DNA of 64,000 nt from Nocardioides panzhihuensis. Lineage in GTDB: Bacteria > Actinomycetota > Actinomycetes > Propionibacteriales > Nocardioidaceae. The stretch lies in contig NZ_JACBZR010000001.1 of the NCBI RefSeq assembly GCF_013408335.1, positions 5,543,501 to 5,607,500 on the forward strand, read 5' to 3'. This document shows, piece after piece, positions 13,543-38,993 of this stretch (position 1 is its first letter; each line of letters starts with the position of its first letter). The translations under genes and the position numbers were made by a program. Below the pieces are notes generated by a model. It had not been told where the DNA came from and searched no databases. It was given only the letters and a program-made list of their open reading frames with translations.

Positions 13543-13554
13543 CGTCTAACCGGG

Positions 13555-14385: not shown

Positions 14386-14464
14386 GACTACCTCCTGTGC
14401 CGACAGGTTCGGTACCCGATTCACGTCGAGTCATGCCGTCACGCCGTCGGTGTCACCCACGAGA

Positions 14465-14498: not shown

Positions 14499-14509
14499 CG
14501 ATGCGTACG

Positions 14510-15955: not shown

Positions 15956-16118
15956 GAGACTTACTTCTCCTCCAGAGGAAGGGGGGATCGAAGGAAAATG
16001 CAGCAGCGATCCTCCCCGAGATGTGGCCGGTGCCACGAGGACGCTGGCCGGAACTATGGCGGAAGTGAGTTGATCTGGCAACGACCTTGTTCCGGCGAAG
16101 AGCGGTAGGTTGCCGGGC

Positions 16119-17069: not shown

Positions 17070-17184
17070 CAGCTTCACAGTTCAGACACAGGTCGTGCTC
17101 AACTGGATGACGGGGCTGTGCCTGTGTCACTCTGGAGGGAGTTGTACGGATTCTGTTCATGTAGAAGTGCGAGGAGTTCACTCG

Positions 17185-17412: not shown

Positions 17413-17436
17413 GGGGCCACCAGGTGAGCGACCGCG

Positions 17437-18012: not shown

Positions 18013-18052
18013 GGGATCTCCTTCTGAGCTGATGTCTGGCGCCCGAGACGGA

Positions 18053-18082
18053 TCAGGGGCAGCGACTCGTCGCTGCCCCTGA
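18053..18082 (-). terminator. 13-bp hairpin after the DUF4352 gene
   Basis: Perfect arms TCAGGGGCAGCGA / TCGCTGCCCCTGA around a CTCG loop, 10 bp beyond the stop at 18092 and 40 bp before the start of the next minus-strand gene. Confidence 0.8.
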
Positions 18083-18091
18083 TGGGATGCG

Positions 18092-18961
18092 CTACTTCAG
18101 GCCGAGTGCGAAGTGGGACTCGCCGCGCCCGAAGAGGTCGGAGACCTGGAGGATGCCGCCGGCGGCCTTTGCCGGGGGTACGTCGAAGACGAGCTTGCCC
18201 TTGGTCGCGAGGTCCGGCTGCATGTCGCGGAGGAAGAGGGACTCGTCGCCGAGGTAGATCGCGGCGTCGGAGCCCTCGTATCTCGTTCCGTCCTTGGCGA
18301 TGAACACCGCAGAGGTGTCCATGAACGTCTTGGTCTCGTCCTTGGTGTTCTCGATGGTGAGGTCGACGACCACGAAGACGCCGTCCGCTCGCTCGCCGAA
18401 CTCGCCGCCGACGTTGTCCTGGGTGCTCGCGCCGGTCACCGTGTAGGCGGTGCCCTCCAGCTTCGCGGTCTGTCCGACCTTGAACGGGCGCTTGGCAGAA
18501 CCTTGCTCGGGCTTGTCAGCCTTCGGCTTGTCGGCCTTCGGCTCGTCGCCGGTGGAAGCACTGGGAGCCGACTCGGTGGTGGCATCGGTCGCGCTGCCGG
18601 TGTCGTCGCCGCCGACTGCGCCGGCGATGGCACCGACTACCAGCACCCCGGCGACCGCACAGGCGCCGATCAGTGCTCCCTTGGAGTCTGTCGTCTGGCG
18701 GCTGAAGTTGCCGTACTCGTCGACGCGGAGCACCAAGCTCTGCCGCCGGTTCAGGTGCGCGATGAGCAGCCAGGCGACCGACCACAACCCGCAGGTGACG
18801 ATGGTGAGGATCAGGTGCAGGACGTGGTTCGTGCGGCCGCCCTTGGCCAGCACCGTGTGGTACTCGGTCTGCGACTCGACCCGCCAGCCGCCGTCGGCGA
18901 CCTCCTTGGCGACGGCCTGAGACATCTGCTGGCGCACGTTCGCCGTGGGCTCGTTGGTCAT
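18092..18961 (-). CDS. DUF4352-type membrane-anchored protein
   Basis: ATG 18961 has GAGGGAAG upstream; the longer reading lacks one. 289 residues: an N-terminal ~85-residue domain with two hydrophobic stretches (HLILTIVTCGLWSVAWLLIA is typical of small two-helix actinobacterial proteins), a further helix (ALIGACAVAGVLVVGAIAGAV), a low-complexity Ser/Thr then KADKPKADKPE linker, and a C-terminal beta-sandwich (KVGQTAKLEGTAYTVTGAS...FVVVDLTIENTKDETKTF) of the DUF4352 / telomeric-repeat-factor-like immunoglobulin type. It is probably surface exposed; the role is unknown. Confidence 0.78.
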   Translation of the reverse strand: MTNEPTANVRQQMSQAVAKEVADGGWRVESQTEYHTVLAKGGRTNHVLHLILTIVTCGLWSVAWLLIAHLNRRQSLVLRVDEYGNFSRQTTDSKGALIGACAVAGVLVVGAIAGAVGGDDTGSATDATTESAPSASTGDEPKADKPKADKPEQGSAKRPFKVGQTAKLEGTAYTVTGASTQDNVGGEFGERADGVFVVVDLTIENTKDETKTFMDTSAVFIAKDGTRYEGSDAAIYLGDESLFLRDMQPDLATKGKLVFDVPPAKAAGGILQVSDLFGRGESHFALGLK

Positions 18962-19144
18962 TGTTCTTCCCTCCCTCTGGCTGCGGGGTTGCAGCTCGTG
19001 ATGAGTGAAGGTTGACGCTGACAGGGTCGATCGACTACGGGGATCGCTGATAAGGGGGTTTAACGGCAATTCCTGCGTTTAGAGACCGCTGCTGGCTCTA
19101 TGGTGAGGCGAAGTATCGGAATCGAGCTGGGAAGGGGTTGCGAT

Positions 19145-21031: not shown

Positions 21032-22734
21032 TGCCACCACGTAAGAAGAAGGATCCGTCGACACCGTCGACGATGGACGAGCTCAAGGACATGCTCTGGA
21101 AGGCCGCCGACAAGCTTCGCGGCTCGCTCTCGGCGGCGCAGTACAAGGACGTCATCCTCGGCCTGGTCTTCCTGAAGTACGTCTCCGACGCCTTCGAGGA
21201 GCGCCGCGAGACCATCCGCACCGATCTGCTCGCGGACGGCTACGACGAGGACCAGATCGCCGACCTGATCGACGACGCCGAGGAGTACCAGGGCTACGGC
21301 GTCTTCCTGGTCCCCGCCCAGGCCCGCTGGCAGCACCTCGCCGAGAACGCCAAGGGCAAGCCCGCGATCGGTGACGAGGCGGGCCGCACGATCGGCTCGC
21401 TCGTCGACGAGGCCATGGACGCGATCATGAACGCCAACGAGTCCCTGCGCGGGACCCTGCCGCGGCTCTACAACAAGGACAACATCGACCAGCGCCGCCT
21501 CGGCGAGCTGATCGACCTGTTCAACTCGATGCGCTTCTCCCGCCAGGGCGAGCATCGTGCGCGCGACCTGATGGGTGAGGTCTACGAGTACTTCCTCGCC
21601 AAGTTCGCCGCTGCCGAGGGCAAGCGCGGCGGCGAGTTCTTCACGCCGCCGGCGGTCGTACGCACCATCGTCGAGGTCCTCGAGCCGACCTCGGGTCGCG
21701 TCTACGACCCCTGCTGCGGCTCGGGTGGCATGTTCGTCCAGGCCGAGAAGTTCATCGAGACCCACGACGGCGACCCGACCGCGATCTCGATCTATGGTCA
21801 GGAGGCCAACGAGGAAACCTGGCGCCTGGCGAAGATGAACCTCGCCATCCACGGCATCAACAACTCCGGCCTCGGCCCCCGCTGGGGCGACACCTTCGCC
21901 CGAGACATCCACCCCGATGTCCAGGTCGACTACGTGATGGCCAACCCGCCTTTCAACATTAAGTCCTGGGCCCGCAACACCGAGGACCCCCGCTGGCGCT
22001 ACGGCGTACCTCCCGCCAACAACGCCAACTACGCCTGGATCCAGCACATCCTCTCCAAGCTCGCGCCCGGCGGTAAGGCCGGCGTGGTCATGGCCAACGG
22101 CTCGATGTCGTCCAACTCCAACGGCGAAGGCGACATCCGAGCCCAGATCGTCGAAGCGGACCTGGTTTCTTGCATGGTGGCATTGCCCACCCAGCTCTTC
22201 CGCTCCACCGGCATCCCCGTCTGCATCTGGTTCTTCGCCAAGAACAAGGGCTCCCGCGCCGGCGAAGTCCTCTTCATCGACGCCCGCAACCTCGGCTACA
22301 TGGTCGACCGCGCCGAGCGCTCGTTGTCCGACGAAGACATCGCCAAGATCGGCGACACCTACCACCGCTGGATGAACGGCCCCTCGACCAGCGACCAGCC
22401 GGCGCTGTTTGAGCCGTCGTCACCGTCGGTCGAGCCCTCGTCCCCGTTGGTTGAGCCGGATTCGCGAGGAACGAGCGAATCCGTGTCGAAACCAACACAG
22501 TCGCCGTACGAAGACATCCCCGGCTTCTGCAAGTCAGCCACGTTGGCCGACATCAAGGCAGCCGACTACGCACTCACCCCCGGCCGCTACGTAGGCGCCC
22601 CCGAAGCAGAAGACGACGGGGAACCCGTCGACGTCAAGATCAACCGCCTCACGACCGAGCTTCTGGAGGCGTTCGACGAGTCAGCCCGCCTCGAGAAGGT
22701 CGTGCGCCAGCAGTTGGAGCGCCTCGATGCGTGA
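21031..22734 (+). CDS. hsdM: Type I restriction-modification methyltransferase subunit HsdM
   Basis: 567 residues, an N-6 adenine DNA methyltransferase. The N-terminal HsdM helical domain (LWKAADKLRGSLSAAQYKDVILGLVFLKYVSDAFEERR) is followed by GEVYEYFLAKFAAAEGKRGGEFFTPP, motif I DPCCGSGG (~226) and catalytic NPPF (~304). It works with HsdS and HsdR to modify the host sequence. Residues ~460-490 (SVEPSSPLVEPDSRGTSESV) are an unusual linker encoded by a REP-like palindrome at 22449-22493. It overlaps hsdS by 8 bases. Confidence 0.96.
   Translation: MPPRKKKDPSTPSTMDELKDMLWKAADKLRGSLSAAQYKDVILGLVFLKYVSDAFEERRETIRTDLLADGYDEDQIADLIDDAEEYQGYGVFLVPAQARWQHLAENAKGKPAIGDEAGRTIGSLVDEAMDAIMNANESLRGTLPRLYNKDNIDQRRLGELIDLFNSMRFSRQGEHRARDLMGEVYEYFLAKFAAAEGKRGGEFFTPPAVVRTIVEVLEPTSGRVYDPCCGSGGMFVQAEKFIETHDGDPTAISIYGQEANEETWRLAKMNLAIHGINNSGLGPRWGDTFARDIHPDVQVDYVMANPPFNIKSWARNTEDPRWRYGVPPANNANYAWIQHILSKLAPGGKAGVVMANGSMSSNSNGEGDIRAQIVEADLVSCMVALPTQLFRSTGIPVCIWFFAKNKGSRAGEVLFIDARNLGYMVDRAERSLSDEDIAKIGDTYHRWMNGPSTSDQPALFEPSSPSVEPSSPLVEPDSRGTSESVSKPTQSPYEDIPGFCKSATLADIKAADYALTPGRYVGAPEAEDDGEPVDVKINRLTTELLEAFDESARLEKVVRQQLERLDA
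22449..22493. repeat. REP-like palindrome inside hsdM
   Basis: GGTTGAGCCGGATTCGCGAG followed by an imperfect complement ending GAATCCGTGTCGAAACC. Arms pair as GGATTCGC/GCGAATCC with outer GGTT/AACC. It is 45 bp long (15 codons) and in frame. The GGTTGAG...CGAAACC ends recall intergenic palindromes common in Nocardioides-type genomes. Confidence 0.65.
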
Positions 22735-23884
22735 TCTGATCCTCGGTGAGTCGCTTGAAGCCTTGATCGATCACCGCGGGAAGACTCCCGCCAAACTTGG
22801 ATCTGACTTCCAAGCTGATGGTGTTCCCGTCGCTTCCGCGATTCTGGTTAAGAACGGGCGCCTCGATCTCAGCGACGCAAGATTTGTCGACAGCAAGACC
22901 TATGCACGGTGGATGGGGGTGCCGACCCGTGCCGGCGATGTCCTACTCACCTCGGAAGCGCCGTTAGGACGTGTTGCCAGGGTGCCCTCGGATGAGCCGC
23001 TGGTCCTCGGTCAGCGCCTATACGGGCTGCGGGGCCGAGAAGGCATACTCGACTCGGGCTATCTCTATTACGCTCTTCAAACCGAACGGGTGCGGTCCGA
23101 CCTTGTCGGCAGATCGACGGGAACGACAGTCTTCGGGATCCGGCAGTCATCGCTCCGCAACATTGTCATCCCGGCGCCATCGTTTGAGGAGCAGCGCTCC
23201 ATCGCCGAGGTCCTAGGCGCCCTCGACGACAAGATCGCCGGCAACGAGCGCGTCATCGCGTCCGCTGATCAGCTGGCTACTGCTCTGATGCAGCAGGCGC
23301 TGGTCGACCGTTCGGTGCCGTTGGTCGAGGTCGCAGCAGTTACCATGGGCTCGTCGCCACCGGGAACGAGCTATAACGAAGACGGCACGGGGATGCCCTT
23401 CTATCAAGGTGTTCGTGACTTCGGCGTGCGGTTCCCGACTCGACGTGTCTGGACGACTGAGCCAGTTCGGACTGCAGCCGAGCGCGATGTGCTGTTGAGC
23501 GTCCGTGCTCCTGTAGGTCGCACCAATGTCGCAAACGAGCAACTCTGTTTGGGGCGCGGCGTTGCCGGACTCCGCCCGCGGGACGGTCGCTCAGCCACTC
23601 TCCTGCATCAGGTCCGTGCGGCCAGTAGCGCCTGGGCCCCTTACGAGGCCGAGGGCACCGTCTTCGGTTCGATCAATAAGAGTCAGCTCGAGTCGATCGA
23701 GATTCCCGCCATCGATCCGGCCGCCGCCGACGTACTTGAGGGCCAACTGCACGCACTCGAAGCACAGATAGCGTCAGCGCTCGCGGAGAACGTCAAACTC
23801 GCCGCATTCCGCGACGAACTCCTCCCCCTCCTGATGTCCGGGAAGCTTCGAGTGAAGGACATCGACGCGACAGTGCTGGCCTGA
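22727..23884 (+). CDS. hsdS: Type I restriction-modification specificity subunit HsdS
   Basis: 385 residues with the duplicated S-subunit layout: a first target-recognition domain (VASAILVKNGRLDLSDARFV...GDVLLTSEAPLGRVA), a conserved helix (PSFEEQRSIAEVLGALDDKIAGNERVI), a second recognition domain (MGSSPPGTSYNEDGTGMPFYQG...RDVLLSVRAPVGRTN) and a terminal helix (QIASALAENVKLAAFRDELLPLLMSGKLRV). The two recognition domains set the bipartite DNA target for both HsdM and HsdR. Codon use is less GC-biased than in hsdM, as is usual for frequently exchanged hsdS genes. Confidence 0.94.
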   Translation: MRDLILGESLEALIDHRGKTPAKLGSDFQADGVPVASAILVKNGRLDLSDARFVDSKTYARWMGVPTRAGDVLLTSEAPLGRVARVPSDEPLVLGQRLYGLRGREGILDSGYLYYALQTERVRSDLVGRSTGTTVFGIRQSSLRNIVIPAPSFEEQRSIAEVLGALDDKIAGNERVIASADQLATALMQQALVDRSVPLVEVAAVTMGSSPPGTSYNEDGTGMPFYQGVRDFGVRFPTRRVWTTEPVRTAAERDVLLSVRAPVGRTNVANEQLCLGRGVAGLRPRDGRSATLLHQVRAASSAWAPYEAEGTVFGSINKSQLESIEIPAIDPAAADVLEGQLHALEAQIASALAENVKLAAFRDELLPLLMSGKLRVKDIDATVLA

Positions 23885-25580: not shown

Positions 25581-26177
25581 ATGCCGGGGGACGATCGCTA
25601 CACCTATCCCAACTCGGGCGGGGTTCTCCGTAATCTCTTGGGGATCACCGACGCGACAGAGTTGGACGAAGCCACGAACGCGTTCGTCTCCGTTGCCTGG
25701 GCGGATCTCGAAACGCAGCCCGCTCCCGATCGGATCGACCGCGCGTATCTGCACGGGGTCCATCGGCATCTCTTCCGGGATCTCTTCTCGTGGGCAGGCA
25801 AGGTCAGAGACGTCGACGTGATGGCGGCAGGTACGTCGGTCGTGTACTGCCCGGTTGCCGAAGTCGAGCAGCGTATTGACGACGCCTTCGACGAGCTTGT
25901 ACAGCATGACTTTCTGCAAGGACTGGACTACCTCGACTTCGCAGCGAAGCTCGCTCGGTTCTGGACCAAGCTCACCGTTGCCCACCCTTTCCGTGATGGG
26001 AACACACGGTCGCAGACCTTTGTCATCGCCAGACTCGCGGAAGCTGCCGGCCACCCGATCGCGTGGGAGCGTGTCGATCACGAGAGTTTGCGTCGACAGC
26101 GGATGGCCGCCGCGCAAGGCCATCCTGAGGCGCTCGCACTCTTCATCGAGAATCGCATCGAAGGTTCCTTGTGGTAG
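25581..26177 (+). CDS. Fic domain protein (putative toxin, AMPylase-like)
   Basis: 198 residues matching the Fic fold: YPNSGGVLRNLLGITDATELDEATNAF at the N-terminus, YLHGVHRHLFRDLFSWAGKVRDVDV, then the active-site loop HPFRDGNTRSQ at ~135-145. The catalytic His and the GN anion hole are present, but the canonical HPFx(D/E)GNGR has Thr in place of the second Gly, a variant also seen in other short Fic proteins. Canonical enzymes transfer AMP to target hydroxyls. GTG/ATG starts are close; ATG 25581 is used. It is paired with the VbhA-like gene upstream. Confidence 0.85.
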   Translation: MPGDDRYTYPNSGGVLRNLLGITDATELDEATNAFVSVAWADLETQPAPDRIDRAYLHGVHRHLFRDLFSWAGKVRDVDVMAAGTSVVYCPVAEVEQRIDDAFDELVQHDFLQGLDYLDFAAKLARFWTKLTVAHPFRDGNTRSQTFVIARLAEAAGHPIAWERVDHESLRRQRMAAAQGHPEALALFIENRIEGSLW

Positions 26178-26378: not shown

Positions 26379-26454
26379 ACTGCGTTCTGCCCACACGCCC
26401 GGCTTGGCGGCGTACGTTTCCAGTCGAAAGCAAAGGTCGACGACAGGACGGGCG

Positions 26455-29400
26455 ATGGTCAGCGAAGCGGAGTGGGAGCAGATCGCGGTCGAGGCGTTCC
26501 ACGAGCAGGGGTGGGAGGCGCTCCGCGGGTCGGAGGTGCTCCCGGGCATCCACGACGGGCGCAAAGAGTGGTCCGATCTGGTGATGCCCGACCGGACGCT
26601 GGCGGTTATGAAGCGGCTCAACCCCGTGGTGCCGGCGGACTTCCTTGCCCAGGCGCTTGCCGAGATCGTCGCGCCGAAGTCGCAGGACGCGATCGCGGAG
26701 AACTACCGGCTGCACCGGATCCTCGTCGACGGCTACCGCGGGCTGACGTACGTCGATGACGACGGGGTCGAGCAGAGCCCGACGGTCCGGCTGGTAGGTC
26801 ACCGCGTGGCCGACAACGAGTTCAACGTCGTCAACCAGGTCACCATCCGCAACCGGGAGAAGGAGCGGCGGTTCGACTTCGTGCTCTATCTCAACGGCCT
26901 GCCTGTCGGGATCGGGGAGCTCAAGCGGGCCGGGTCGCAGCAGGCGGATCTGTCCAGCGCGCACGCACAGTTGGAGACGTACCTTCGGGAGTTCCCGATG
27001 GCTTTCCGGTTCTGTGTCCTCTCGATCGTCAGCGACGGGATCACGGCCAGGTACGGGACCCCGTTCACGCCGCTGAACCACTACTCGCCGTGGAACGTCG
27101 ACGACGACGGCCGGCCGATCAAGCCGGGAGTCGACGTCGATGACCTCTCGATCGGTGTCGAGCTCGAATACCTGATCGACGGCGTCGGCAACCTCGAGCG
27201 GTTCCTTCAGCTCCAGCGCGACTATGTCGCCTTCGACGAAGGCGCTGGTGGCTATGCCAAGAGGATCGCCAAGCCGCACCAGTACTTCGCGGTGACCAAG
27301 GCGGTCGGGTCGACCGTCACGGCTGTGGAGAGCAACGGCAAGGCCGGCGTCGTGTGGCACACCCAAGGTTCGGGCAAGTCGATGGAGATGGAGCTCTACG
27401 CCCACGCCGTCTCTCAGCAGCCCAAGCTGAAGAACCCGACGATCGTCGTCGTCACCGACCGTAACGAGCTTGACAGCCAGCTCTTCGAGAGCTTCAACAG
27501 CAGCCGCCTCCTGAGCGAAAGGCCGGTCAAGGTTGCCACTCGTGCTCAGCTGCGGGACGAGCTCACCCACCGGATGACCGGTGGTATCTACTTCACGACG
27601 CTGCAGAAGTTCGGGCTCTCACAACGGGAGAAGGAGTCGGGGCTCGATCACCCGCTGCTGTCCGAGCGACGCAACATCGTCGTCGTGGTCGACGAGGCCC
27701 ACCGGAGCCATTACGACGACCTCGACGGGTATGCGCGCCACATCCGGGACGCGCTTCCGCAGGCTGCGTTCATCGCCTTCACTGGGACCCCGATCTCGTT
27801 CGACGACCGCAACACCGAGGAGGTCTTCGGTCGGGTCATCGACACATACGACCTGACCAGGGCCGTCGACGATGGTGCGACCGTGCAGGTCTACTTCGAG
27901 CCTCGCCTGATCCAGGTGAAGCGGGCCGGCGAGATCAGCGAGGACGACCTCAACAATGCCGCCGACGAGGCCACCGCCGGACTCGACGATGTCGAGCGTG
28001 ACCGGATCGAGAAGTCGGTCGCCGTCATCAACGCGGTCTACGGCGCCCCGGCACGGCTCAAAACGCTCGCCGCGGATCTGCTGGCTCACTGGGAGGCGCG
28101 GTCGACCGCGATCACGCCCTTCATCGAGTCGCCCGGCAAGGCGTTCGTCGTCGGTGGGACCCGGGAGATCTGCGCCCACCTCTATGAGGAGATCATCGCG
28201 CTGCGCCCCGACTGGCACGCAGACTCCGAAGCCGAGGGAGTGGTGAAGGTCGTGTACTCCGGATCGGCCTCGGACAGCGGCTTGGTCGGCAAGCACGTCC
28301 GCCGCGAGGCTCAGAACAAGGTCATCCAGAAGCGTCTCAAGGACGCTGAGGATCCGCTGCAGATCGTCATCGTCAAGGACATGATGCTGACCGGCTTCGA
28401 CGCACCCCCGCTGCACACCCTGTACCTGGACCGGCCGCTCAAGGGCGCCCTGCTGATGCAGACGCTGGCGCGGGTCAACCGGACCTTCCGGGGTAAGCCG
28501 AACGGTCTGCTGGTTGCGTACGCACCGCTTGCCGACAACCTCAGCAAGGCTCTGGCTGAGTACACCGAGACCGACCAGAAGGAGCGCCCTGTCGGGCGGG
28601 ACGTCGATGAGGCTGCCAAGCTCGCCAACGACCTGGTCGAGCGGCTCGACGCGCACTGCGCAGGGTTCAACTGGCGTTCCAAGCTCGATGGCCAGCAGCG
28701 GGCGTGGGTGAAGGCTGCGGTCGGGCTGACGAACTACCTGCGCTCACCTGCGACGCCAGGCAATGTCGTAGGTGACGGGGAAGAGACCCTGTCCGACAGC
28801 TTCCGCAAATTGGCCAACCAGCTGTCCCGAGCATGGGCTCTGGCTGCTGGCAAGGAGACGCTGGAGGGACTGCGCCAGACGGTCAGGTTCTACGAAGAGG
28901 TCCGCGTCTGGATGGGGAAGTTCGACGCCCAGGAACGGCAGGCATCCGGCCGGCCGGTGCCCGAGGAGATCCAGCGCCTGCTGTCCTCCCTCGTGGAGAC
29001 CTCGACGGTGACCGGAGAGATCGTCGACATCTACGATGCCGCCGGTCTGCCGAAGCCGTCGCTCAGCGAGCTCGGTCCGGAGTATCTGGCCAAGGCGCAG
29101 AAGGCGGAGAACCCGCACCTGGCGATCGAGGCGCTGCGTGACCTGCTCACCGAGGAGTCGAGCCAGGTGACCCGGTCGAACCTGGTACGCCAGCGAGCCT
29201 TCGCCGAGCGGATCCAGGAGCTGATGAACCGCTACACCAACTCCCAGCTCACCTCGGCCGAAGTCATCGCCGAGCTGATCGAGCTGGCTCACGAGGTCGC
29301 TGCGGAAGCCAACCGCGGGCAGCACTTCTCCCCGCCGCTGGACTCCGACGAGCTCGCCTTCTACGACGCCGTCTCCAGCAACGAGTCGGCTGTGGAACTC

Positions 29401-29634
29401 CAGGGCGAGGACGTACTGGCCCAGATCGCCCGCGATCTTGTCGCGATCATGCAGCGCGACGTCAAGACCGACTGGACGGTCCGCGACGACGTACGGGCGA
29501 AGCTGCGGTCCTCGATCAAGCGGCTGCTGGTGAAGTACAAGTACCCGCCCGACAAGCAGGCGGGCGCCATTCAGCTGGTCATGGACCAGATGGAGTCATT
29601 GGCTCCGCGATACGCCCAGGGCGAAGGGGCGTAG
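26455..29634 (+). CDS. hsdR: Type I restriction endonuclease subunit HsdR
   Basis: ATG 26455 (MVSEAEWEQIAVEAFHEQGW) is preceded by AGGACGG; 1059 residues. The N-terminal nuclease domain shows FDFVLYLNGLPVGIGELKRAG, the D...ExK core of a PD-(D/E)xK site. The motor follows: Walker A HTQGSGKSMEM, DEAH-box VDEAHRSHYDDL, FTGTPI, and ARVNRTFRGKPNGL (motif VI). The C-terminal ~200 residues are the helical HsdM-contact domain. It translocates and cuts unmodified DNA. Separated from hsdS by the TIGR04255/antitoxin/Fic module. Confidence 0.96.
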   Translation: MVSEAEWEQIAVEAFHEQGWEALRGSEVLPGIHDGRKEWSDLVMPDRTLAVMKRLNPVVPADFLAQALAEIVAPKSQDAIAENYRLHRILVDGYRGLTYVDDDGVEQSPTVRLVGHRVADNEFNVVNQVTIRNREKERRFDFVLYLNGLPVGIGELKRAGSQQADLSSAHAQLETYLREFPMAFRFCVLSIVSDGITARYGTPFTPLNHYSPWNVDDDGRPIKPGVDVDDLSIGVELEYLIDGVGNLERFLQLQRDYVAFDEGAGGYAKRIAKPHQYFAVTKAVGSTVTAVESNGKAGVVWHTQGSGKSMEMELYAHAVSQQPKLKNPTIVVVTDRNELDSQLFESFNSSRLLSERPVKVATRAQLRDELTHRMTGGIYFTTLQKFGLSQREKESGLDHPLLSERRNIVVVVDEAHRSHYDDLDGYARHIRDALPQAAFIAFTGTPISFDDRNTEEVFGRVIDTYDLTRAVDDGATVQVYFEPRLIQVKRAGEISEDDLNNAADEATAGLDDVERDRIEKSVAVINAVYGAPARLKTLAADLLAHWEARSTAITPFIESPGKAFVVGGTREICAHLYEEIIALRPDWHADSEAEGVVKVVYSGSASDSGLVGKHVRREAQNKVIQKRLKDAEDPLQIVIVKDMMLTGFDAPPLHTLYLDRPLKGALLMQTLARVNRTFRGKPNGLLVAYAPLADNLSKALAEYTETDQKERPVGRDVDEAAKLANDLVERLDAHCAGFNWRSKLDGQQRAWVKAAVGLTNYLRSPATPGNVVGDGEETLSDSFRKLANQLSRAWALAAGKETLEGLRQTVRFYEEVRVWMGKFDAQERQASGRPVPEEIQRLLSSLVETSTVTGEIVDIYDAAGLPKPSLSELGPEYLAKAQKAENPHLAIEALRDLLTEESSQVTRSNLVRQRAFAERIQELMNRYTNSQLTSAEVIAELIELAHEVAAEANRGQHFSPPLDSDELAFYDAVSSNESAVELQGEDVLAQIARDLVAIMQRDVKTDWTVRDDVRAKLRSSIKRLLVKYKYPPDKQAGAIQLVMDQMESLAPRYAQGEGA

Positions 29635-29863: not shown

Positions 29864-31177
29864 ATGAGCAGCGACGCTACGAGCGTGGCCGCCGAGCTGA
29901 CCAAGCTCACGGAAGACCCCCGGTTCAGCCCTCGGAAGGCGGACCTGAAAGAGCTGGTCGTCGACATCGTCGATCCTGATGGTGACGCTTGGGCCGATGT
30001 GAACCTGTTCGCCGCCTTCCCAACGGAGTCGACTGTTAAGGCTGTGTACCGGCGCCCCGCCGAGAACGTCGTCGGCGCCGTCGCCGGTGCGATGGTCTTT
30101 GCCCCGGTCGCGTGGACCTGGTGGGGCTTTCACGACGCGTCGAAAGCGTACGAAGAGCTGATCACTGAAAGCGGCGATCCGGAAGGCTCCACTTTCCTGT
30201 CGTTGTGGGCGCAAGGCTTCGACGGACGTATGGACGGCTTCTGGGGAGGCCTGCACCAGCTCGTGCCGATGGCGATGGGTTCGCTTCTCCTGGTTGCGGC
30301 CGCCGTGGTCGCCGTCATCCTCCACCGTGCGATCGCCACCAGGAACGTACGGCGTGAGGAGGAGGCCGCCGAGGAAGCGCGGATCCTTCTCACGTCCGCT
30401 CTCACCAAGGCGCAGCGGGTCGTCAGCTCGCGCCGGGCGGATCACCCGCTTCGGATCGAGGGGATCATCAAGTCCTCGATGGAGCAGCTGCGGGCAGCTC
30501 ACACAGACACGGCGTCAGCCACCCGCGATCTGGCAGTGACGGCTGCGGACGTGAAGACGAGCATCGCGTCGCTGCTCGACACGGTGAAGTCGGCGGGCGA
30601 GGAAGCGGCATCGATCCTGGCCCGGGCGAACGAGGTCAACCAGACCGTCAGCACCTCGATCGCCAAGGTCGAGTCGTCCATGGCGTCGATGGAGACCGTG
30701 GTCACCGAAGGCGTACGGGGCGTCGAGAGTGCGGTGAAGACCGGATCTGAGGAGATCCGCGCCGCCGCAGCCGACTCGTCGCAACAGTTCGCGGCGGACG
30801 TGACTGCGTCGCTCGGTGGGTTCGGTGAGCAGGTCCAGGAAAGCCTGTCCAGCTTCTCCCAGGGCGCGACCACCGCGATCAAGGACGCCGGTGGGGCTCT
30901 CGTGGAAACTATCGGAACCATCAGCGGAAGCGCCGAACGTACGGCTCAAGCGTCGAGCGAGCTCAGCGAGCAGGTCGGCCTCCTGAACGAGCATCAGGAG
31001 ACGGCGCAGAGTGCGCTCAATGCGGTGATCGCGGATCTACGTGACGCGGTCCTCGAGGTCGAGGCCACCCTGGCCCGCCACGATGGCGCGCTCCAAGGGC
31101 AGGTCTCTGAGCTCACCGGTGTACGCGACGGGCTCGGTCAGATTGCTCGCAGGCTGACCATGACGGCCGTCAACTGA
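29864..31177 (+). CDS. Membrane-anchored long coiled-coil protein (ZorA-like layout)
   Basis: First gene of a five-gene operon; AGAGAGAAG precedes the ATG. 437 residues: a soluble N-terminus (~1-65), helix 1 (~69-90, GAVAGAMVFAPVAWTWWGF), an outside loop of ~40, helix 2 (~133-154, GSLLLVAAAVVAVILH), then ~280 residues of Ala/Ser/Glu-rich heptad-like sequence (ATRDLAVTAADVKTSIASLL...VQESLSSFSQG...LRDAVLEVEATLARH). Two helices plus a long cytoplasmic tail recall ZorA, the TolQ/MotA-like stator of Zorya, but a true MotA_ExbB domain is not evident. The downstream TolR/MotB-like partner supports a stator-type pair. The 29635-29863 gap shows no promoter I can define. Confidence 0.6.
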   Translation: MSSDATSVAAELTKLTEDPRFSPRKADLKELVVDIVDPDGDAWADVNLFAAFPTESTVKAVYRRPAENVVGAVAGAMVFAPVAWTWWGFHDASKAYEELITESGDPEGSTFLSLWAQGFDGRMDGFWGGLHQLVPMAMGSLLLVAAAVVAVILHRAIATRNVRREEEAAEEARILLTSALTKAQRVVSSRRADHPLRIEGIIKSSMEQLRAAHTDTASATRDLAVTAADVKTSIASLLDTVKSAGEEAASILARANEVNQTVSTSIAKVESSMASMETVVTEGVRGVESAVKTGSEEIRAAAADSSQQFAADVTASLGGFGEQVQESLSSFSQGATTAIKDAGGALVETIGTISGSAERTAQASSELSEQVGLLNEHQETAQSALNAVIADLRDAVLEVEATLARHDGALQGQVSELTGVRDGLGQIARRLTMTAVN

Positions 31178-31178
31178 G

Positions 31179-31688
31179 ATGGCCGGCATCGACTCCAATC
31201 GCCGGGGCCGGCTCTTCTCCGTCGAGTCGATCGCGGGCTGGGTCTTCGCGGATCTCCTCCTGGTCCTCTTCATCGTCGGGCTCGGGTCAGCCGTTGCGTA
31301 CACGCCTCCCGAGCCGCCGAAGAAAGAGCCGAAGACCATCGTTGGGATGAAAACAGATCCGACCCCGATCGGGGTGCGGGTTGACGGCGGTCGTCTGGCC
31401 GGCGGCGGAAAGCTGGATGCGACGACGAAGAAGTCCGTGTGCCAAGCGGTGAAGAAGCGTCTCGGGCCGGTCGCGGGACAGCGAGCTGCACTTGTGCTGG
31501 TCTTCGGTGGCGGTCCTGACGTCAGCTCCGGCCAGAACGTGGCCCGCGCGATCACCCCGCAGCTGGGATGCGCCAGCTCGGAGGTCTTTCAGGGAAAGGT
31601 CCCGACGCGCGCGTTCTGGGACGGCTCGCTGCCGCTCGGAGAAGCCCGCCTCGAGGTCTTCCTGTTCCACACCGAGAAGCAAGGCTGA
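31179..31688 (+). CDS. Single-helix TolR/MotB/ZorB-like protein
   Basis: 169 residues. The N-terminal helix (~20-40) reads GWVFADLLLVLFIVGLGS: an Asp (D25) directly before a Leu-rich run, as in TolR/ExbD/MotB plug segments where that Asp carries the proton. A Pro-rich linker (TPPEPPKKEPK) leads to a ~110-residue outside domain with a conserved-looking core (GQRAALVLVFGGGPDVSSGQNVARAI) that may be a reduced OmpA/MotB-like peptidoglycan-binding fold. It starts one base after the previous stop and shares TGATG with the next gene. Confidence 0.6.
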   Translation: MAGIDSNRRGRLFSVESIAGWVFADLLLVLFIVGLGSAVAYTPPEPPKKEPKTIVGMKTDPTPIGVRVDGGRLAGGGKLDATTKKSVCQAVKKRLGPVAGQRAALVLVFGGGPDVSSGQNVARAITPQLGCASSEVFQGKVPTRAFWDGSLPLGEARLEVFLFHTEKQG

Positions 31689-32881
31689 TGAGACGGTTCT
31701 TCGCGCGTCTGACCAAGCTGTTCACGCGCGGTCGATCGCACCGCTCCGCCGACGATGCTCAGACGGAGGCGCCGGCGAAGCTGCCGGAGACGACATCCGA
31801 GCCGCGATCGGTCACGACGCCGGTGTCCCCGATGAAGGCCCCTTTAGAGGCCCCGGACGACGTTGTTCCGGAGGCGCTTCAGGACGCGTCGGAGGTCGTC
31901 CGGGACCTGCCTACGAAGGCGCTTCCGGAGGCCGCGGCTGTCGCGCAATATGCGCCACCCGTTGAGCCCTTTGAGCCCGTTGGGGTGCCGAGGGCTTCGA
32001 CACCCCTCACCGCGCCGCCGATGCGACCTGCTGGACCCGAGGTGGAGCGCGAGCCATACGCCGCTGTTCCGCAGACGGAGCCCGTGCCCGTTCCTGAGCG
32101 GGACCAGATCGTGCGTTACGCCGACTACAGCGACAGCAGGTACGACGCAGTCGACGGCGGATTCCCGGATCCTCCGGGCCTGGCAGCTGAGGCCGATGCG
32201 GCGCCGACCATGACGCCGGCGATGACGAGCCTGACGACGACCCTGCCGCTCGCTCTGCTCGACGAGACCCTCGCAGAGCTGTCGGCCGGTCGCGAACGGG
32301 TCGAGGATGTGATCGGCGCCGAGCCGGTCTCGGTGGGTTGGCCGAGTTCGGCCGCCGACGGTCCCTGGCTCGAGATACCGAGTCCTGACAAGCGGTTCCG
32401 GGACAGCACCGGGGACGTTCGCACTCTGCAGTCCGCCCTCCCCGACGGTGGGCTCACGGACACGCTCGATCGGCTCGAACTGGTCCGTCTCCTCGGTATC
32501 GGGCTGCAGGCCCTGCACACGGCGGAGATGGTCACCGGTGGCGTTTCCCTCGCGGCGTACGCGTTCACTCTGGAGCCACGCCCCGCGCTGTGTCTGCTGA
32601 GGCCGGACCTGCTCCGGCGTATCGGTGGCGAGCAGCTGGTGGCCGACGCGGGGACCTGGGGTCGCCGCTTCGACGAGGACCGATACGAGTTCGCGGTGGT
32701 GACTCACCAGCTGCTGATCAGCGGGCGGCCCGACGCGAGGATCCAGATCATGGACGAGGTTCGGGTTGCCGGGCTCCGGCGCGGCCAGTGCCAGAGGCTG
32801 GAGGGGCTGTGGTCGCGAGCCTCCCGAGAGCCGGGCACCCGGCCGCAGGTGACGGAGTGGATGGAGGTGCTGCTGCCGTGA
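31688..32881 (+). CDS. Protein with disordered N-terminus and degenerate kinase-like C-terminus
   Basis: 397 residues. Residues 1-20 are basic and amphipathic (MRRFFARLTKLFTRGRS), ~25-180 are Pro/Glu/Ala-rich and probably disordered. From ~250 the order of elements follows a protein kinase C-lobe: helix LELVRLLGIGLQALHTAE, catalytic-loop position VTGGVSLAAYAF (active kinases have HxD), LCLLRPDLLRRIG, DRYEFAVVTHQLLISGRPD (like the helix-F region) and GTRPQVTEWMEVLL (like RPTAxEWL). The HRD His/Asp and DFG are absent, so it should be inactive. I infer a pseudokinase adaptor. It overlaps the flanking genes by TGATG on both sides. Confidence 0.55.
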   Translation: MRRFFARLTKLFTRGRSHRSADDAQTEAPAKLPETTSEPRSVTTPVSPMKAPLEAPDDVVPEALQDASEVVRDLPTKALPEAAAVAQYAPPVEPFEPVGVPRASTPLTAPPMRPAGPEVEREPYAAVPQTEPVPVPERDQIVRYADYSDSRYDAVDGGFPDPPGLAAEADAAPTMTPAMTSLTTTLPLALLDETLAELSAGRERVEDVIGAEPVSVGWPSSAADGPWLEIPSPDKRFRDSTGDVRTLQSALPDGGLTDTLDRLELVRLLGIGLQALHTAEMVTGGVSLAAYAFTLEPRPALCLLRPDLLRRIGGEQLVADAGTWGRRFDEDRYEFAVVTHQLLISGRPDARIQIMDEVRVAGLRRGQCQRLEGLWSRASREPGTRPQVTEWMEVLLP

Positions 32882-35800
32882 TGCGACTCGAGGAGCTGGC
32901 CGCTGGTCAGCGAGTCAACGGAATCACCGGCGCCGGTGTTGAGCTCGTTGCCACGAGCTGGATCGGCGGCGACTTTCTCGAGGTGACCTATCGAGACGCT
33001 GCCGGAGGGATCGGAGAGGCGTTTCTCGACCGCACGCACGAGAGCAATCTCGCGCTGGACACCGGTCGTGACGACACGTTCGGTGCAGATGCCGGTGAGT
33101 GGAAGCTTGGCGTAGAGGCGCTTCGTATCAAGCACGCTGCGCTGATCGACCCCATGTTGGCCGTGTCCAACTCGGCCCTCCAGCCGCTGCCACACCAGAT
33201 CACCGCAGTCTATGGGGAGCTGCTTCCGCGTACTCCGCTTCGCTACCTGCTTGCTGACGACCCTGGGGCAGGCAAGACGATCATGTGTGGGCTCTATATC
33301 AAGGAGCTCCTGCTTCGCGGCGAGCTGGAGCGGTGCCTGGTGGTGGCGCCGGGGAGCCTGGTGGACCAGTGGCAGGACGAGCTGTGGGAGAAGTTCGGTC
33401 TGAAGTTCTCCGTGCTTTCCCGCGAAGGTTTGCAAGGCGCTGTCGCCGGCACCTACTTCGATGACAACCCCTTGCTCATTGCCCGGATGGACATGCTCAA
33501 GCGGGACGAAGACCTCCAGGAGGACCTGGACGCCATCGACTGGGATCTGGTGGTCGTCGACGAGGCACACCGGATGTCTGCGAAGTGGGGCCGAGACGGA
33601 TTGGACCGAACCAAGAGGTACGCCCTGGGGCAGTTGTTGGGTCGTCGTGCCCGCAACTTCCTGCTCATGACCGCGACGCCGCACTCGGGAGATCCGGAGG
33701 CATTCCGGATCTTTCTTGCCCTCCTCGACGAGGACAGATTCGGCGGTAGGCCGACGGGATCGACCTTGACGCCCGGTAACGACGTCATGCGCCGGATGCT
33801 GAAGGAGGACCTCCTCACGATGGAGGGCCGTCCGCTCTTCCCTCCGCGAAAGGCCTACACAGTCCGATACCGGCTGTCTTCCGTGGAGCAGGAGCTCTAT
33901 GACGAGGTCGGCGAGTACGTACGGCAAGGGATGGTCAGTGTCGAGCGGATCCGTGAAGGCGACAGACGACGCGCCACCAACCTGGGCTTCGCACTGATCG
34001 TGCTGCAGCGGCGTCTAGCCTCCAGCCCGGAAGCGATCTGGCGTAGCCTGCAGCGTCGTCGCGCCAAGCTGGGTGGGCTGCGTGATGAGCTCGCTGAGCG
34101 GGGGGAAGCGTTCTGGGAACAAGCCACGATCAGGCTCCCCGGCTCGTGGTCAGACGATCCGACGATGGAGGCCACAGCAGAGGAAGAGGCCTTCGCTGAC
34201 GAAGCAGTCGAGCGGATCAGCGCCGCGGAGACACTCGGTGAGCTCGACGTCGAGCTGAGCCAGCTCGACCGTCTGATCCCGTTGGCGCGACGAGCGCGGG
34301 AGTCCGGTACCGACCAGAAGTGGCTGGAGCTCCGCGGCATCCTGGAGAGCGCCCAGATGACCGACGACAGTCAAGGGCACCCACGCAAGATCATCGTCTT
34401 CACCGAGCACAAGGACACCCTCAGCTACCTGCGTGGTCGGATCACCGCGTTGCCGGGTCGCGCCGAGGCTGTCGTGGAGATTCACGGAGCCATGGACATG
34501 CGGGAAAGGCGTCGGGTCCAGCATCGGTTCACTCAGGACCCGAACACGACGGTTCTCTTGGCCACTGACGCTGCCGGCGAGGGACTCAACCTCCAGGCGG
34601 CGCACCTGATGGTCAATTACGACCTTCCCTGGAACCCCAACCGGATCGAGCAGCGCTTCGGTCGAATCCATCGGATCGGTCAGAAGGAGACCTGCCATCT
34701 GTGGAGCCTAGTGGCCGAAGACACGCGTGAGGGCGCTGTCTTCATCCGGCTTTTGGAGAAGATGGAAGAGCAGGCTGCCTCATTGGGAGGCAAGGTCTAT
34801 GACGTCCTCGGTGAGACGTTCGAGGGGGAGCCCCTGGAACGGCTTCTCGCCCGGGCAGTCCGCGAAGGTGAGGGCGCGCGGAGGCATCTGGAGAGGATCA
34901 TCGACGCGCGCGTTGGCGACGAGCTGCCCAGGTTGCTAGAGCAGCGGGCGCTCTACCGAGAAGTGCTATTGCCGGTGGATATCGAGGGTGCGCGCCGACG
35001 AGCGGATCTCGGGCAGCGGACACGGCTCCAGCCGCATTTGGCATCCGCGTGGTTCGCCGAGTCGGTCCACGTTCTCGGAGGCCGCGTGCAGCTGCGCGCT
35101 GACGGCACAGCAGAGGTGCTCCGAGTCCCGGAGGTCGTCCGGGAGCGCGCACGGGCGGGGACCGTATTGAACGCGCGCTACGGGAATGTGCGCTTCGCCC
35201 CCGAGCAGGAACAGCCCGCAACCGCTGGTGGCACTGTGCTGGGCCCGGGGAGCCCGCTCTTCGACGCTCTCGCGGACACGGTGGCAGAGAGGTACGCCAG
35301 CTCGTCTGTGTCCGGAACGTTGTTGATCGACCCGACCGGCCGTGACGACAGCACGCGACTGCTGGCCGCCGTCGGCCACGAGATAGTCGACGGTAGAGCG
35401 GTCTCCACCGCGCTGTCGCGGCGCTTCGAGATCGTGGAGATCGACGAGTCCGCTGCCGGTGCGGCAGCCGGCCTACGTCATCTCGACTACCGAGCCGCAA
35501 CGGACCAAGAGCTCACCCAGCTCCTGGGAATGCGTGGCACGGCATTTGTAGATCCGGTGTCGCTCGCCATGCGATGGGCGGTGAGCCACCTTGTGGCGGA
35601 GCACACCACCGACGTACGCAACAGCCACGGCGCAGCCACCGAACGCAGGCGTGAGGCGATCAACGACCGGCTCCGCAACCTGTCACCTTCCGACCCGGTC
35701 GCTGGCCGTTTGAGGCACCGCCTGGAACGACTCGCCGAGGAGGCACAGATCGTCTCGCGCCGGCCTCGGATCCACGCGGTTGCCCTCGTGGTCCCTGCAT

Positions 35801-36198
35801 CGGTGTTCGGTATCACGCCGCAGGTCGACTCGGTCGCGTCTTTGGAGGTCGCAACGGCACGAACTGTTCGCGACCTCGAGGAGCAGGGCCTGGCGGCGAC
35901 CTCGACCGAAGTGGGTGCCGTTCAGGTCGATCGTGGAGGCGAGACAGTCTGGATCGACGTGCGCGTGGGCGACGGGGCCGGACACCGACTCCGGATGGCG
36001 CGTAGCGATGTCATCCAGGGCGCGAACCTGGGAGGCCGCTATCGACTGGCTCTCGTCGACCGCGGGGACATCCGGTACGTCGCAGCGCCCTATGGCCGAT
36101 TGCGGCTGGACAAGTATCACCAACACGAGTTCGACCTCGTCTGGTCGAGCGTGTGGCGCGATGGTTCGCGCGACCTTGATGGGAAGAAGGCCCTGTGA
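32881..36198 (+). CDS. SNF2-family helicase (DISARM DrmD-like)
   Basis: 1105 residues from ATG 32881. An N-terminal ~100-residue barrel-like domain (LEELAAGQRVNGITGAGVELVATSW) precedes a complete SWI2/SNF2 motor: Walker A DDPGAGKT (~127-133), VVVDEAHRMS (~224-231), LMTATPHSGDPEAF, and QRFGRIHRIGQKETCHLW (motif VI). The C-terminal ~450 residues are helical with a terminal RLRLDKYHQHEFDLVW segment. The sequence order closely follows the large SNF2 helicases typified by DrmD of DISARM and related defence proteins. No DISARM partners (DrmA, DrmB, DrmMII) are nearby. ATP-driven DNA translocation is expected. It overlaps the next gene by GTGA. Confidence 0.85.
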   Translation: MRLEELAAGQRVNGITGAGVELVATSWIGGDFLEVTYRDAAGGIGEAFLDRTHESNLALDTGRDDTFGADAGEWKLGVEALRIKHAALIDPMLAVSNSALQPLPHQITAVYGELLPRTPLRYLLADDPGAGKTIMCGLYIKELLLRGELERCLVVAPGSLVDQWQDELWEKFGLKFSVLSREGLQGAVAGTYFDDNPLLIARMDMLKRDEDLQEDLDAIDWDLVVVDEAHRMSAKWGRDGLDRTKRYALGQLLGRRARNFLLMTATPHSGDPEAFRIFLALLDEDRFGGRPTGSTLTPGNDVMRRMLKEDLLTMEGRPLFPPRKAYTVRYRLSSVEQELYDEVGEYVRQGMVSVERIREGDRRRATNLGFALIVLQRRLASSPEAIWRSLQRRRAKLGGLRDELAERGEAFWEQATIRLPGSWSDDPTMEATAEEEAFADEAVERISAAETLGELDVELSQLDRLIPLARRARESGTDQKWLELRGILESAQMTDDSQGHPRKIIVFTEHKDTLSYLRGRITALPGRAEAVVEIHGAMDMRERRRVQHRFTQDPNTTVLLATDAAGEGLNLQAAHLMVNYDLPWNPNRIEQRFGRIHRIGQKETCHLWSLVAEDTREGAVFIRLLEKMEEQAASLGGKVYDVLGETFEGEPLERLLARAVREGEGARRHLERIIDARVGDELPRLLEQRALYREVLLPVDIEGARRRADLGQRTRLQPHLASAWFAESVHVLGGRVQLRADGTAEVLRVPEVVRERARAGTVLNARYGNVRFAPEQEQPATAGGTVLGPGSPLFDALADTVAERYASSSVSGTLLIDPTGRDDSTRLLAAVGHEIVDGRAVSTALSRRFEIVEIDESAAGAAAGLRHLDYRAATDQELTQLLGMRGTAFVDPVSLAMRWAVSHLVAEHTTDVRNSHGAATERRREAINDRLRNLSPSDPVAGRLRHRLERLAEEAQIVSRRPRIHAVALVVPASVFGITPQVDSVASLEVATARTVRDLEEQGLAATSTEVGAVQVDRGGETVWIDVRVGDGAGHRLRMARSDVIQGANLGGRYRLALVDRGDIRYVAAPYGRLRLDKYHQHEFDLVWSSVWRDGSRDLDGKKAL

Positions 36199-38993
36199 CC
36201 GACCCGAACTACGATCCGCTCAGCATCGCGAAGGACGTGCGGTCATGGGCCAAACGCACCGTCGGTCATCTCGACCGGCTGGTGAGCGAGGTGAATAAGG
36301 CGGAGGCTGAGGCTCGTAAGAGCAGCATCGTCGTGCCTTTCCCTGAGCGTGAAGGGGCGATCCTCGGAGGCACGGTCGCTGTCCCAGGACCTGCCGCCGG
36401 TAAGCCCGTTGACGCGATGTGGAAGGCCGTCGATCACTATGCCCGGCTGCGTGATTCCGCCGGACTGTTCACCATCGATGTCGGTGTGCTGACGTGTGAG
36501 CTGCGCGCACTGGTCACAGCAACGAAGCCACGGCGGCGGCTGTTTCGGCAGCTGCCGCCGGACCCGGCTGTGGTCGACAGACTGTTGGAGCTGCGCGACT
36601 GGGCGGTCAAGACCGGGTACGACCAGGCACTGGCGGGGGTTGCCGAAGGTCGGCTTACCGCCGAGCCCTCGCTGAGCGAGAGGGTGAATGCCTTGGCCAG
36701 CGTTCTCGGGGTCGCTGCTCCGGAGGGAACACCCGGACGCGTCGACGCCGAAGACTCCGAGCTGGTGCACACGGCGCTGCGGCTTCACGCCCAGATCGAT
36801 GCACACCATGAACGTCTGCGCGAGGAGGTACGAGAGGCGTACGCGAAGGCGCAGGACCGCAAGCTGGACATCGAGCTTGCCCGCCTCCCGCTGGACGCGC
36901 TCAAGGCGGTCAGCGACGGAGGGCTGCGGCTGGGGACGTTGGAGAGCGCCGGGATCGACAATGTCGGCGAGGTGCTGCGGATGGGTGGAAGCATCGCCCA
37001 GCTGCCAGGGATCAGCGAAGACGGCGCACGGATGATCCTTGCTGCGGCGGGGAGACTGCGTCGTGCCGCTGCAGAGAATCTCGGGCATCGCATCGACGCC
37101 AAACCAGAGGACCCGCTGCTGACCAGCCTCGTGAGGGCCTTGGCGACAGCGCGTGCCTTTGAGGACGATCTGAGCGAGCACCGTGGGCGACTCTCCGAGC
37201 TGGCCGACGCGGTCGCGGACTGGGGAACCGTCCCGGCATGGGACGGCGAGGTCCTTCTGCTTCACCGCTCGTCTCCGCGTCGCGGCGCGGATCTGGCGAC
37301 GTGGGTGAAGAACTGGGCGGACTGGGCCGGCAACACCGGGCTGGCCAAGCTTCTCTCGAGGACAGAGTCGGTCATCTCTGTGGAAGAGGCGTGGGCGACC
37401 TACAGCCGTCAGGCTGTGGAGTTCTACGGCTCGTTGGCGGAGATCGCCGGTATTCCTGTGGACGAGCAGGGGGCGCAGGGGCACCTGCCGGATCAGATCG
37501 TCGAAGCCGTCAACTCGCTGCACCTGGACAAGGCACAGCTGGCGGTCTCGCTGCGCGGCTACCAAGACTTCGGAGCGCGGTTCGCACTCATGCAGCGCCG
37601 AGTCATCCTCGGTGACGAGATGGGTCTGGGAAAGACGGTGCAGGCGATCGCCGCGATGGCGCATCTGGCAGCGAGCGGAGCGAACCATTTCGTGGTGGTG
37701 TGTCCCCCTGCTGTCGTCTTCAACTGGGTCAAGGAGATCCGGGCGCACAGTCGCCTCGCGGCCTTCCGAATTCACGGTCCTGATCGTGATGCTGAGCTGC
37801 GCCGTTGGCGTCAGCAAGGGGGCGTCGCCGTGGTCTCGTTCGGCATCTCGAACGGAATCGACCTCGGCGGTTTGGATCCGGCGATGCTCGTCGTCGACGA
37901 GGCCCACTACGTCAAGAACCCCGAGGCCAAGCGGTCTCAGGCGGTTGCGCGCCATGCCCAGCGTAGTGACCGTGTGCTCTTCCTATCCGGCACGCCGATG
38001 GAGAACCGGCTCAGCGAGTTTCACGCCCTCGTCTCGCACCTGCAACCCGACGTGCTCGGTGATATCGACCCAGCCGCGGCCGCTGTAGGCGGGAAGCAGT
38101 TCCGGGCGGCGGTGGCCCCGGTCTATCTGCGCCGCAAGTCCGAAGATGTGCTTGCCGAGCTGCCGGAGCTGATCCAGACAGAGGAGTGGACGGATCTCAC
38201 CGCAGTTGAAACCGACGCCTATCTTGATGCGCTGAACGCCAGCGACTTCGCTGCGTTGCGCAGGATCGCCTTGACCGCTGATCCGGATTCGTCCAAGCTC
38301 GCCCGCCTCGAGGAGATCGTCGACGAGGCGCTCGGCGGGGGTCGAAAGGTATTGGTCTTCTCCTACTTCCGAGAGGCGCTCGCGGCGATCTTAGACAGGC
38401 TCGGGGACAGGGCGATCGGCGTGATCAATGGGAGTGTCCCCGTCGCTGCTCGAGAGAAGCTCTGCGAGGAGTTCAACAGCTCGTTGCGCCCAAAGGTGCT
38501 GATCGGCCAGATCGAGGCAATGGGCACCGGTCTCAATCTGCAGGCCGCATCGGTTGTGGTCTTGTGTGAGCCTCAGGTCAAACCCACCATCGAGGCACAG
38601 GCGATCAAGCGTGCGCACCGAATGGGCCAGGTCGAGAACGTCTCGGTCTACCGGCTGCTGACCACGGAGTCGGTCGATGAGCGCATGCTTGCACTCCTTG
38701 ACCTCAAGCGGCGCGTCTTCGACGAGTATGTCGACGAGTCCGCCGTCGCGACGGTGTCTCCCGATGCGGTCGACGCCACCGATGCTGATCTGGCCAAACA
38801 GGTCTTGGCACAGGAGCAGAACCGCTTGATCGAGCAACTGCGTGCCCGCGCGGCTGCGCAGCGGGCGGCTTCCACGCCGCAGCCGGAGTCCCCAGCGGCG
38901 GGTCCCACGGATGCCAAGTCGTCGCGGGTGGAGACATGCCCGTCGTGCGACCGCAGGGTCGACCCCATGTCAGGACGGTGCGCCTGTTCGTGA
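36195..38993 (+). CDS. Second SNF2-family helicase with HhH-like region and C-terminal zinc ribbon
   Basis: 932 residues from GTG 36195. The ~450-residue N-terminus is helical and includes a helix-hairpin-helix-like stretch (~250-290: TLESAGIDNVGEVLRMGGS, LPGISEDGARMILAAAG). The SNF2 motor follows: GDEMGLGKT (~472-480), VVDEAHYVKN (~568), FLSGTPMENRL, and AQAIKRAHRMGQVENVSVYRL. The last 25 residues hold CPSCDRRVD...GRCACS, a possible zinc ribbon. It belongs to a different SNF2 subgroup (HepA/Rad54-like core) from the helicase upstream. Last gene of the operon; the next gene begins after 137 bp. Confidence 0.85.
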   Translation: MTDPNYDPLSIAKDVRSWAKRTVGHLDRLVSEVNKAEAEARKSSIVVPFPEREGAILGGTVAVPGPAAGKPVDAMWKAVDHYARLRDSAGLFTIDVGVLTCELRALVTATKPRRRLFRQLPPDPAVVDRLLELRDWAVKTGYDQALAGVAEGRLTAEPSLSERVNALASVLGVAAPEGTPGRVDAEDSELVHTALRLHAQIDAHHERLREEVREAYAKAQDRKLDIELARLPLDALKAVSDGGLRLGTLESAGIDNVGEVLRMGGSIAQLPGISEDGARMILAAAGRLRRAAAENLGHRIDAKPEDPLLTSLVRALATARAFEDDLSEHRGRLSELADAVADWGTVPAWDGEVLLLHRSSPRRGADLATWVKNWADWAGNTGLAKLLSRTESVISVEEAWATYSRQAVEFYGSLAEIAGIPVDEQGAQGHLPDQIVEAVNSLHLDKAQLAVSLRGYQDFGARFALMQRRVILGDEMGLGKTVQAIAAMAHLAASGANHFVVVCPPAVVFNWVKEIRAHSRLAAFRIHGPDRDAELRRWRQQGGVAVVSFGISNGIDLGGLDPAMLVVDEAHYVKNPEAKRSQAVARHAQRSDRVLFLSGTPMENRLSEFHALVSHLQPDVLGDIDPAAAAVGGKQFRAAVAPVYLRRKSEDVLAELPELIQTEEWTDLTAVETDAYLDALNASDFAALRRIALTADPDSSKLARLEEIVDEALGGGRKVLVFSYFREALAAILDRLGDRAIGVINGSVPVAAREKLCEEFNSSLRPKVLIGQIEAMGTGLNLQAASVVVLCEPQVKPTIEAQAIKRAHRMGQVENVSVYRLLTTESVDERMLALLDLKRRVFDEYVDESAVATVSPDAVDATDADLAKQVLAQEQNRLIEQLRARAAAQRAASTPQPESPAAGPTDAKSSRVETCPSCDRRVDPMSGRCACS

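Follow-up and report, generated by a model that had tools for sequence, protein, structure and literature searches.

A conserved five-gene operon of Nocardioides panzhihuensis with a predicted membrane pair, a pseudokinase and two SNF2 ATPases: one variant of a modular gene family with a likely role in defence

The stretch of Nocardioides panzhihuensis DNA analyzed here, 64,000 nucleotides of contig NZ_JACBZR010000001.1 (hereafter the window), carries at positions 29864-38993 of the + strand five co-directional genes packed end to end, which we call A to E:

29864-31177, + strand: gene A, 437 amino acids; N-terminal domain, two hydrophobic helices and a long helical tail
31179-31688, + strand: gene B, 169 amino acids; one membrane helix, a proline-rich linker and an outer domain modelled as OmpA/MotB-like
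31688-32881, + strand: gene C, 397 amino acids; kinase-fold protein, a pseudokinase
32881-36198, + strand: gene D, 1105 amino acids; HmaA-like SNF2 ATPase with a degenerate C-terminal PD-(D/E)XK motif
36195-38993, + strand: gene E, 932 amino acids; second SNF2 ATPase, with a C-terminal Cys cluster

Read directly in the window, A and B are separated by a gap of one base pair (bp; TGA-g-ATG), B/C and C/D join as TGATG, the starts of C and D using the last base of the preceding stop codon, while 4 bp (GTGA) are shared by D and E. A codon-score open reading frame (ORF) caller, trained on window genes that included four of the five operon genes, chose the same five frames. Promoter and terminator patterns between 29500 and 39300 were not in excess over shuffled sequences, and Rfam returned zero families at gathering scores for the window. 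An earlier sequence-only reading had described this layout and these junctions, together with the products (a two-helix A with a coiled-coil-like tail, a one-helix B, a dead kinase and two SNF2 proteins), and all of this held when coordinates and joins were read directly. It had also asked whether the genes co-occur outside this genome and whether a single known system model covers them at full length. All five are found in order in two other Nocardioides, N. currus (locus L033) and Nocardioides sp. TRM66260-LWL (L034), with 34-64% identity per protein, and because the same genes keep the same order there the arrangement is not due to chance; in the A tree (97/98) and the B tree (99/98) the three loci group as one clade. 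No model covers the five genes, and the one match to a known component that spans most of a protein is that of D to HmaA.

Searches with A covered genome contigs, which gave six loci, an order census and a phylum sample. With two weak matches (G302 and G033) dropped, the order census found A in 12 of 391 genomes, and among 396 phylum genomes the only accepted match was the genome of the window itself; the dropped match in G682, like the two in the order, covered only the coiled-coil part. A second match in G021 (38 residues near the first helix, E 9e-4) was also set aside. After merging there were 15 loci, the window included (L033-L038, L060-L063 and L066-L069, with L035 and L062 as near-copies), 14 of them testable, as L038 ends within A. 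B adjoins A in 13 of these 14: a six-frame B profile finds it in 12 of the 13 loci fetched, L069 being the exception, and the window is the thirteenth. Likewise, all 10 B-bearing genomes among 293 order genomes have B next to A. A kinase-fold gene follows in 14/14 testable loci, and a C profile from which L036, L063, L067 and L068 were left out recovers all four (weakest E 9e-16). The six-frame check also recovered what the ORF caller had missed (C of L063, B of L061) or started too late (B of L033). One locus, L037, lies in a metagenome-assembled genome of the Lysobacteraceae, and the family therefore spans phyla, on the strength of one contig.

What follows this core differs between loci. 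The SNF2 pair is present in three (the window, L033 and L034); seven (L035, L037, L060, L061, L062, L066 and L069) carry a TerY-P-like set of vWA, PP2C and two kinase genes, with the vWA DxSxS and PP2C DGxG motifs in 7/7 and Pfam matches to both domains in five (L037, L060, L061, L066 and L069); L068 alone has McrBC, as an McrB-like AAA protein and McrC (AAA_5, 90 bits; McrBC, 69 bits); and three (L036, L063 and L067) have no obvious effector. Judged by gene content, what the window carries is a variant within a modular family whose A-B-C core takes exchangeable partners. Two loci deserve separate mention. In L068 (7123-13530, genome G036), A, B and a pseudokinase precede the McrB-like AAA protein, which has a PDC-S02-type N terminus, and McrC. 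In L069 (11087-15798, G161), a degenerate A that has lost T85 and S140 is followed, with no B, by vWA, PP2C and two kinases; this is the only testable A that lacks B.

The hydrophobic helices of A lie at about residues 65-92, barely above threshold, and 131-155, and contain near-invariant residues (P81 in 38/38, T85 in 37/38 and S140 in 36/38 aligned members); its tail is long, helical and coiled-coil-like. The membrane helix of B carries the motif AGW[VI]FAD[LM]L, with Asp25 invariant in 47/47 aligned proteins, and the predicted model of its outer domain has an OmpA/MotB-like arrangement. Distances within A and within B correlate over 13 loci (r 0.76, reached in none of 5000 permutations), the short B calls of L033, L063 and L068 having been used both here and in the trees. 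We infer that the two proteins assemble into a complex in the membrane. The earlier description of the pair as stator-like draws on its architecture, the invariant membrane Asp and the B model, and not on homology, which is not detectable: profile-profile comparison (hhalign) gave 0.8% for MotA and 1.3% for MotB. PF01618 is missing from the matches of the window's A and, in the scan of 24 A members, from the 25 of 156 families that were listed; the host genome has zero matches to it, and A-B is therefore no part of a recognizable flagellar motor in this host. Comparisons of A with the PDB by profile and by fold returned mainly helical bundles and coiled coils, with ZorA retrieved through its rod (14.6 bits, E 0.11), and B gave CutA by profile (E 0.04); neither was credited. 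A ZorA profile had zero matches in 198 phylum genomes, where the controls were likewise silent, so that this search carries no information.

These features bear on the idea that the operon represents a Zorya type that has diverged very far, with ZorA and ZorB homologues past detection in A and B and with C-D-E in place of ZorC-ZorD. We consider this unlikely. A subunits of solved 5:2 motors have at least three hydrophobic helices against two in A, the proteins fail to match MotA/MotB profiles, and B has zero matches among PADLOC and NCBIfam profiles. The layout is nevertheless the same (a coiled-coil-tailed A, a one-helix B and SNF2 proteins), B has its OmpA/MotB-like model, and A gives a weak match to ZorA (21 bits), confined to the coiled coil at residues 218-435. 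Furthermore, the Asp of B, at residue 25, lies close to that of ZorB, given as D24 or D21 in PMC11890865.

The dead-kinase assignment of C stands. Despite the kinase fold, the window protein, its counterparts in L033 and L034 and four homologues from databases have lost the Lys, the catalytic Asp, the Asn and the first Asp of DxD, the DFG-like site, where the second Asp is kept. In the sibling kinases C1 and C2 of the TerY-P-like loci the catalytic D, N and D are intact in 14/14, and the Lys in 12/12 where the called protein extends that far. The remaining loci differ: L036 keeps both Asp residues and neither Lys nor Asn, and L063 keeps the Asn and the first Asp of DxD, whereas in L067 and L068 all of these residues are gone. 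Profile comparison of the window group with C1 and C2 gave 98 and 99.7%, and that of C1/C2 with twelve host kinases 97%, with controls at or below 0.6%; C had zero PADLOC matches up to E 10. An N-terminal hydrophobic helix on C in L036, L063 and L067 suggests that it is located at the membrane in those loci. The intact-kinase loci fall into more than one clade in both trees, which would fit an older phosphorylating form giving rise to dead-kinase forms, perhaps twice, the root being unsettled.

Both D and E retain GxGKT and DEAH, and their ATPase cores look intact, in agreement with the two SNF2 proteins first proposed. D had been called DrmD-like, and here the assignment changes. Among its best 25 of 55 PADLOC matches, HmaA is first (993 bits, residues 1-932), against 381 bits for the best DrmD and 230 bits, far under HmaA, for a DrmA-named profile, and we rejected the DrmD name. 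D also matches a RapA profile with 177 bits. The best 25 of 33 matches of E are headed by DrmD/DpdE, a DrmD-named profile reaching 469 bits, and within the same two sets ZorD profiles reach at most 85 bits for D and 152 bits for E, over the helicase core only. By eye, the C-terminal Cys cluster of E resembles a zinc ribbon. E was rejected as a family marker: E-like genes are common where no A or B was found nearby (L022-L032), and another copy, 39% identical, is encoded elsewhere in the host genome. At one such locus, L022 (G036:C1:1656000-1675000, positions 7202-19001), an E-like SNF2 gene is divergent from an HmaA-HmaB-Orf5-HmaC locus, and no A or B was found there.

An HmaA search of 196 order genomes gave a strong match in 19; excluding the window, N. 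currus and the shortened L114 left 16, and adding L022 made 17 full-length copies for comparison. For 12 of the 16, HmaB is encoded in the fetched flank (a strong match in 11, a short one in the twelfth), and it also lies beside L022, or 13/17, so that four of the 17 are called Hma-type from HmaA alone. The nuclease motif, G[YF]D[IV] with [IL]EVK, is kept in 17/17 of these copies and in 0/3 of the operon clade, which has, in place of [IL]EVK, IDVR (window), VDVA (L033) and TDVA (L034, where the alignment is uncertain and PVDR is the alternative). This degeneracy, and the presence of a D-like and E-like pair at L022 with no A or B found, would be expected if two units merely abutted in the window, an A-B-C membrane module and the D-E remnant of a decayed Hma-type locus. 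We regard this as quite improbable: the order is kept in three loci only 34-64% alike, which form one clade, the window genes overlap or adjoin, and the ATPase motifs are intact after long divergence.

The operon lies within an insertion that also carries a type I restriction-modification (R-M) locus:

17356-39002, no strand assigned: 21.6-kb insertion carrying both the operon and the type I R-M locus
18092-18961, strand not given: a DUF4352 protein encoded at the insertion's left edge
21031-22734, + strand: HsdM of the type I R-M locus, inside the insertion
22727-23884, + strand: HsdS of the type I R-M locus, inside the insertion
25581-26177, + strand: Fic-domain protein (PDC-S04 profile, 188 bits), between HsdS and HsdR
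26404-29634, + strand: HsdR of the type I R-M locus, inside the insertion, ending 229 bp upstream of A

The operon thus directly follows the R-M locus, as had been noted, with a gap of 229 bp. The insertion is missing in 4/4 relatives fetched (L092-L095), in which the right-flank protein is 91-96% identical and the flanks meet within about 20 bases. No integrase was recognized in it, and the longest repeat shared by its borders has 10 bases; its remaining genes include a few with no Pfam match above cut-off. R-M genes also neighbour A-B in L067 (type I, by BLAST to the window's genes) and L061 (type I/IIG, 1461 bits). Among the 18 neighbour genes chosen for the relatives, on which these defence results rest, L038 has a PbeA match (193 bits), L060 and L033 have weak, partial matches to HEC-06 (85 bits) and HEC-05 (100 bits over 53 residues), and no defence profile was found at L034, L036, L037, L062 and L066. 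The family is real, conserved, modular and patchily distributed, and part of it stands beside restriction genes; a role in defence is likely.

The same genes could instead form a regulatory system, an envelope sensor steering transcription or chromosome state through RapA-like SNF2 proteins, which would agree with the RapA match of D and with the absence of a recognized nuclease from the operon. PMC12839542 describes the RapA architecture as common to BREX-type helicases, and PMC11090510 describes TerY-P sets as signalling modules. However, this is improbable given the patchy spread of A (12/391 order genomes), the insertion held jointly with R-M genes, the McrBC genes in the equivalent operon of L068 and the HmaA kinship of D.

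We favour, with moderate confidence, an undescribed, modular and patchy membrane-to-DNA system, most likely anti-phage, of which the window operon would be one variant. A and B would make up the membrane complex, B contributing its membrane Asp and an outside domain that perhaps binds the cell wall, and A contributing polar helix residues and a rod that would reach into the cytoplasm. PMC11890865 and PMC8565338 present Zorya as a 5:2 membrane motor whose rod is proposed to recruit nucleases after cell-wall sensing. The same logic would fit the operon, with the kinase-fold protein at the rod as the hand-over step; our working hypothesis is that C relays a signal from membrane to DNA. In the form we take as ancestral, C would be two intact-residue kinases acting with the PP2C phosphatase and vWA protein as a TerY-P-like phospho-switch. 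The window form would have dropped phosphorylation, its pseudokinase serving as a scaffold that couples A-B to the two SNF2 ATPases. On invading DNA, D and E would serve as motors or roadblocks and not as nucleases, because D has a degenerate nuclease motif and a further nuclease domain was not recognized; any cutting would come from host enzymes or the neighbouring type I R-M system. More tentatively, a stator-like pair with a phospho-switch may have become a mechanical or allosteric link, made of a dead-kinase scaffold and a nuclease-dead helicase, in which the two translocases themselves stop the invader; such a system would form a separate class alongside Zorya. The hand-over of a signal from a stator-like complex to effectors that act on DNA, a question in Zorya as well, becomes testable in this family, where around one conserved membrane pair both the link (a dead kinase, or kinases with phosphatase) and the effector (McrBC or SNF2 pair) have been exchanged in nature. 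The family also suggests a nuclease-free helicase effector.

By the features compared, the operon is outside four known systems, and searches of the open-access literature in PMC listed no account of this combination. With DISARM it shares matches of D and E to DrmD-named profiles and of D to a DrmA-named one, but D is far nearer HmaA, and no match to the DISARM methylase, DrmB or DrmC was listed among operon and insertion genes. The TerY-P triad of vWA, PP2C and Ser/Thr kinase is represented in the window operon by a dead kinase only. Seven sibling loci carry vWA, PP2C and intact kinases after A, with B in six of the seven, and differ from TerY-P in having two kinases and a membrane pair, and in that Pfam shows no zinc ribbon/OB fusion in L060 and L037. 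PMC11090510 connects TerY-P sets with restriction systems, and modules that are TerY-P-like with stand-alone defence against phage. With Hma, which is DUF499-centred and BREX-related, the likeness lies in D, an HmaA relative over 932 residues, and in the E-like gene beside one Hma-type locus; the operon D differs in its lost nuclease motif and its coupling to A-B-C, PMC12839542 reporting an active C-terminal PD-(D/E)XK nuclease in 79% of type 1 Hma systems. Neither A-E nor the other scanned insertion genes matched the HmaB methylase or the HmaC DUF499 ATPase. Compared with Zorya types I-III, A has no detectable ZorA homology beyond the coiled coil, a MotA/ExbB-type membrane core being absent from its matches, and no homology of B to ZorB was detectable. 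ZorC, ZorE, ZorF and ZorG are missing from the PADLOC matches listed, and the sequence-only reading had likewise seen none of them; C-D-E provide neither ZorC with ZorD, nor ZorE, nor ZorF with ZorG, and in their place stand two SNF2 proteins and a pseudokinase here, and TerY-P-like and McrBC versions elsewhere. The likeness is one of plan, a membrane pair, coiled-coil-tailed and Asp-bearing with one helix, tied to exchangeable DNA-acting effectors that include SNF2 proteins. The operon may thus work like Zorya without being established as Zorya, and its family brings TerY-P, Hma/BREX and Zorya-type logic together in one lineage.

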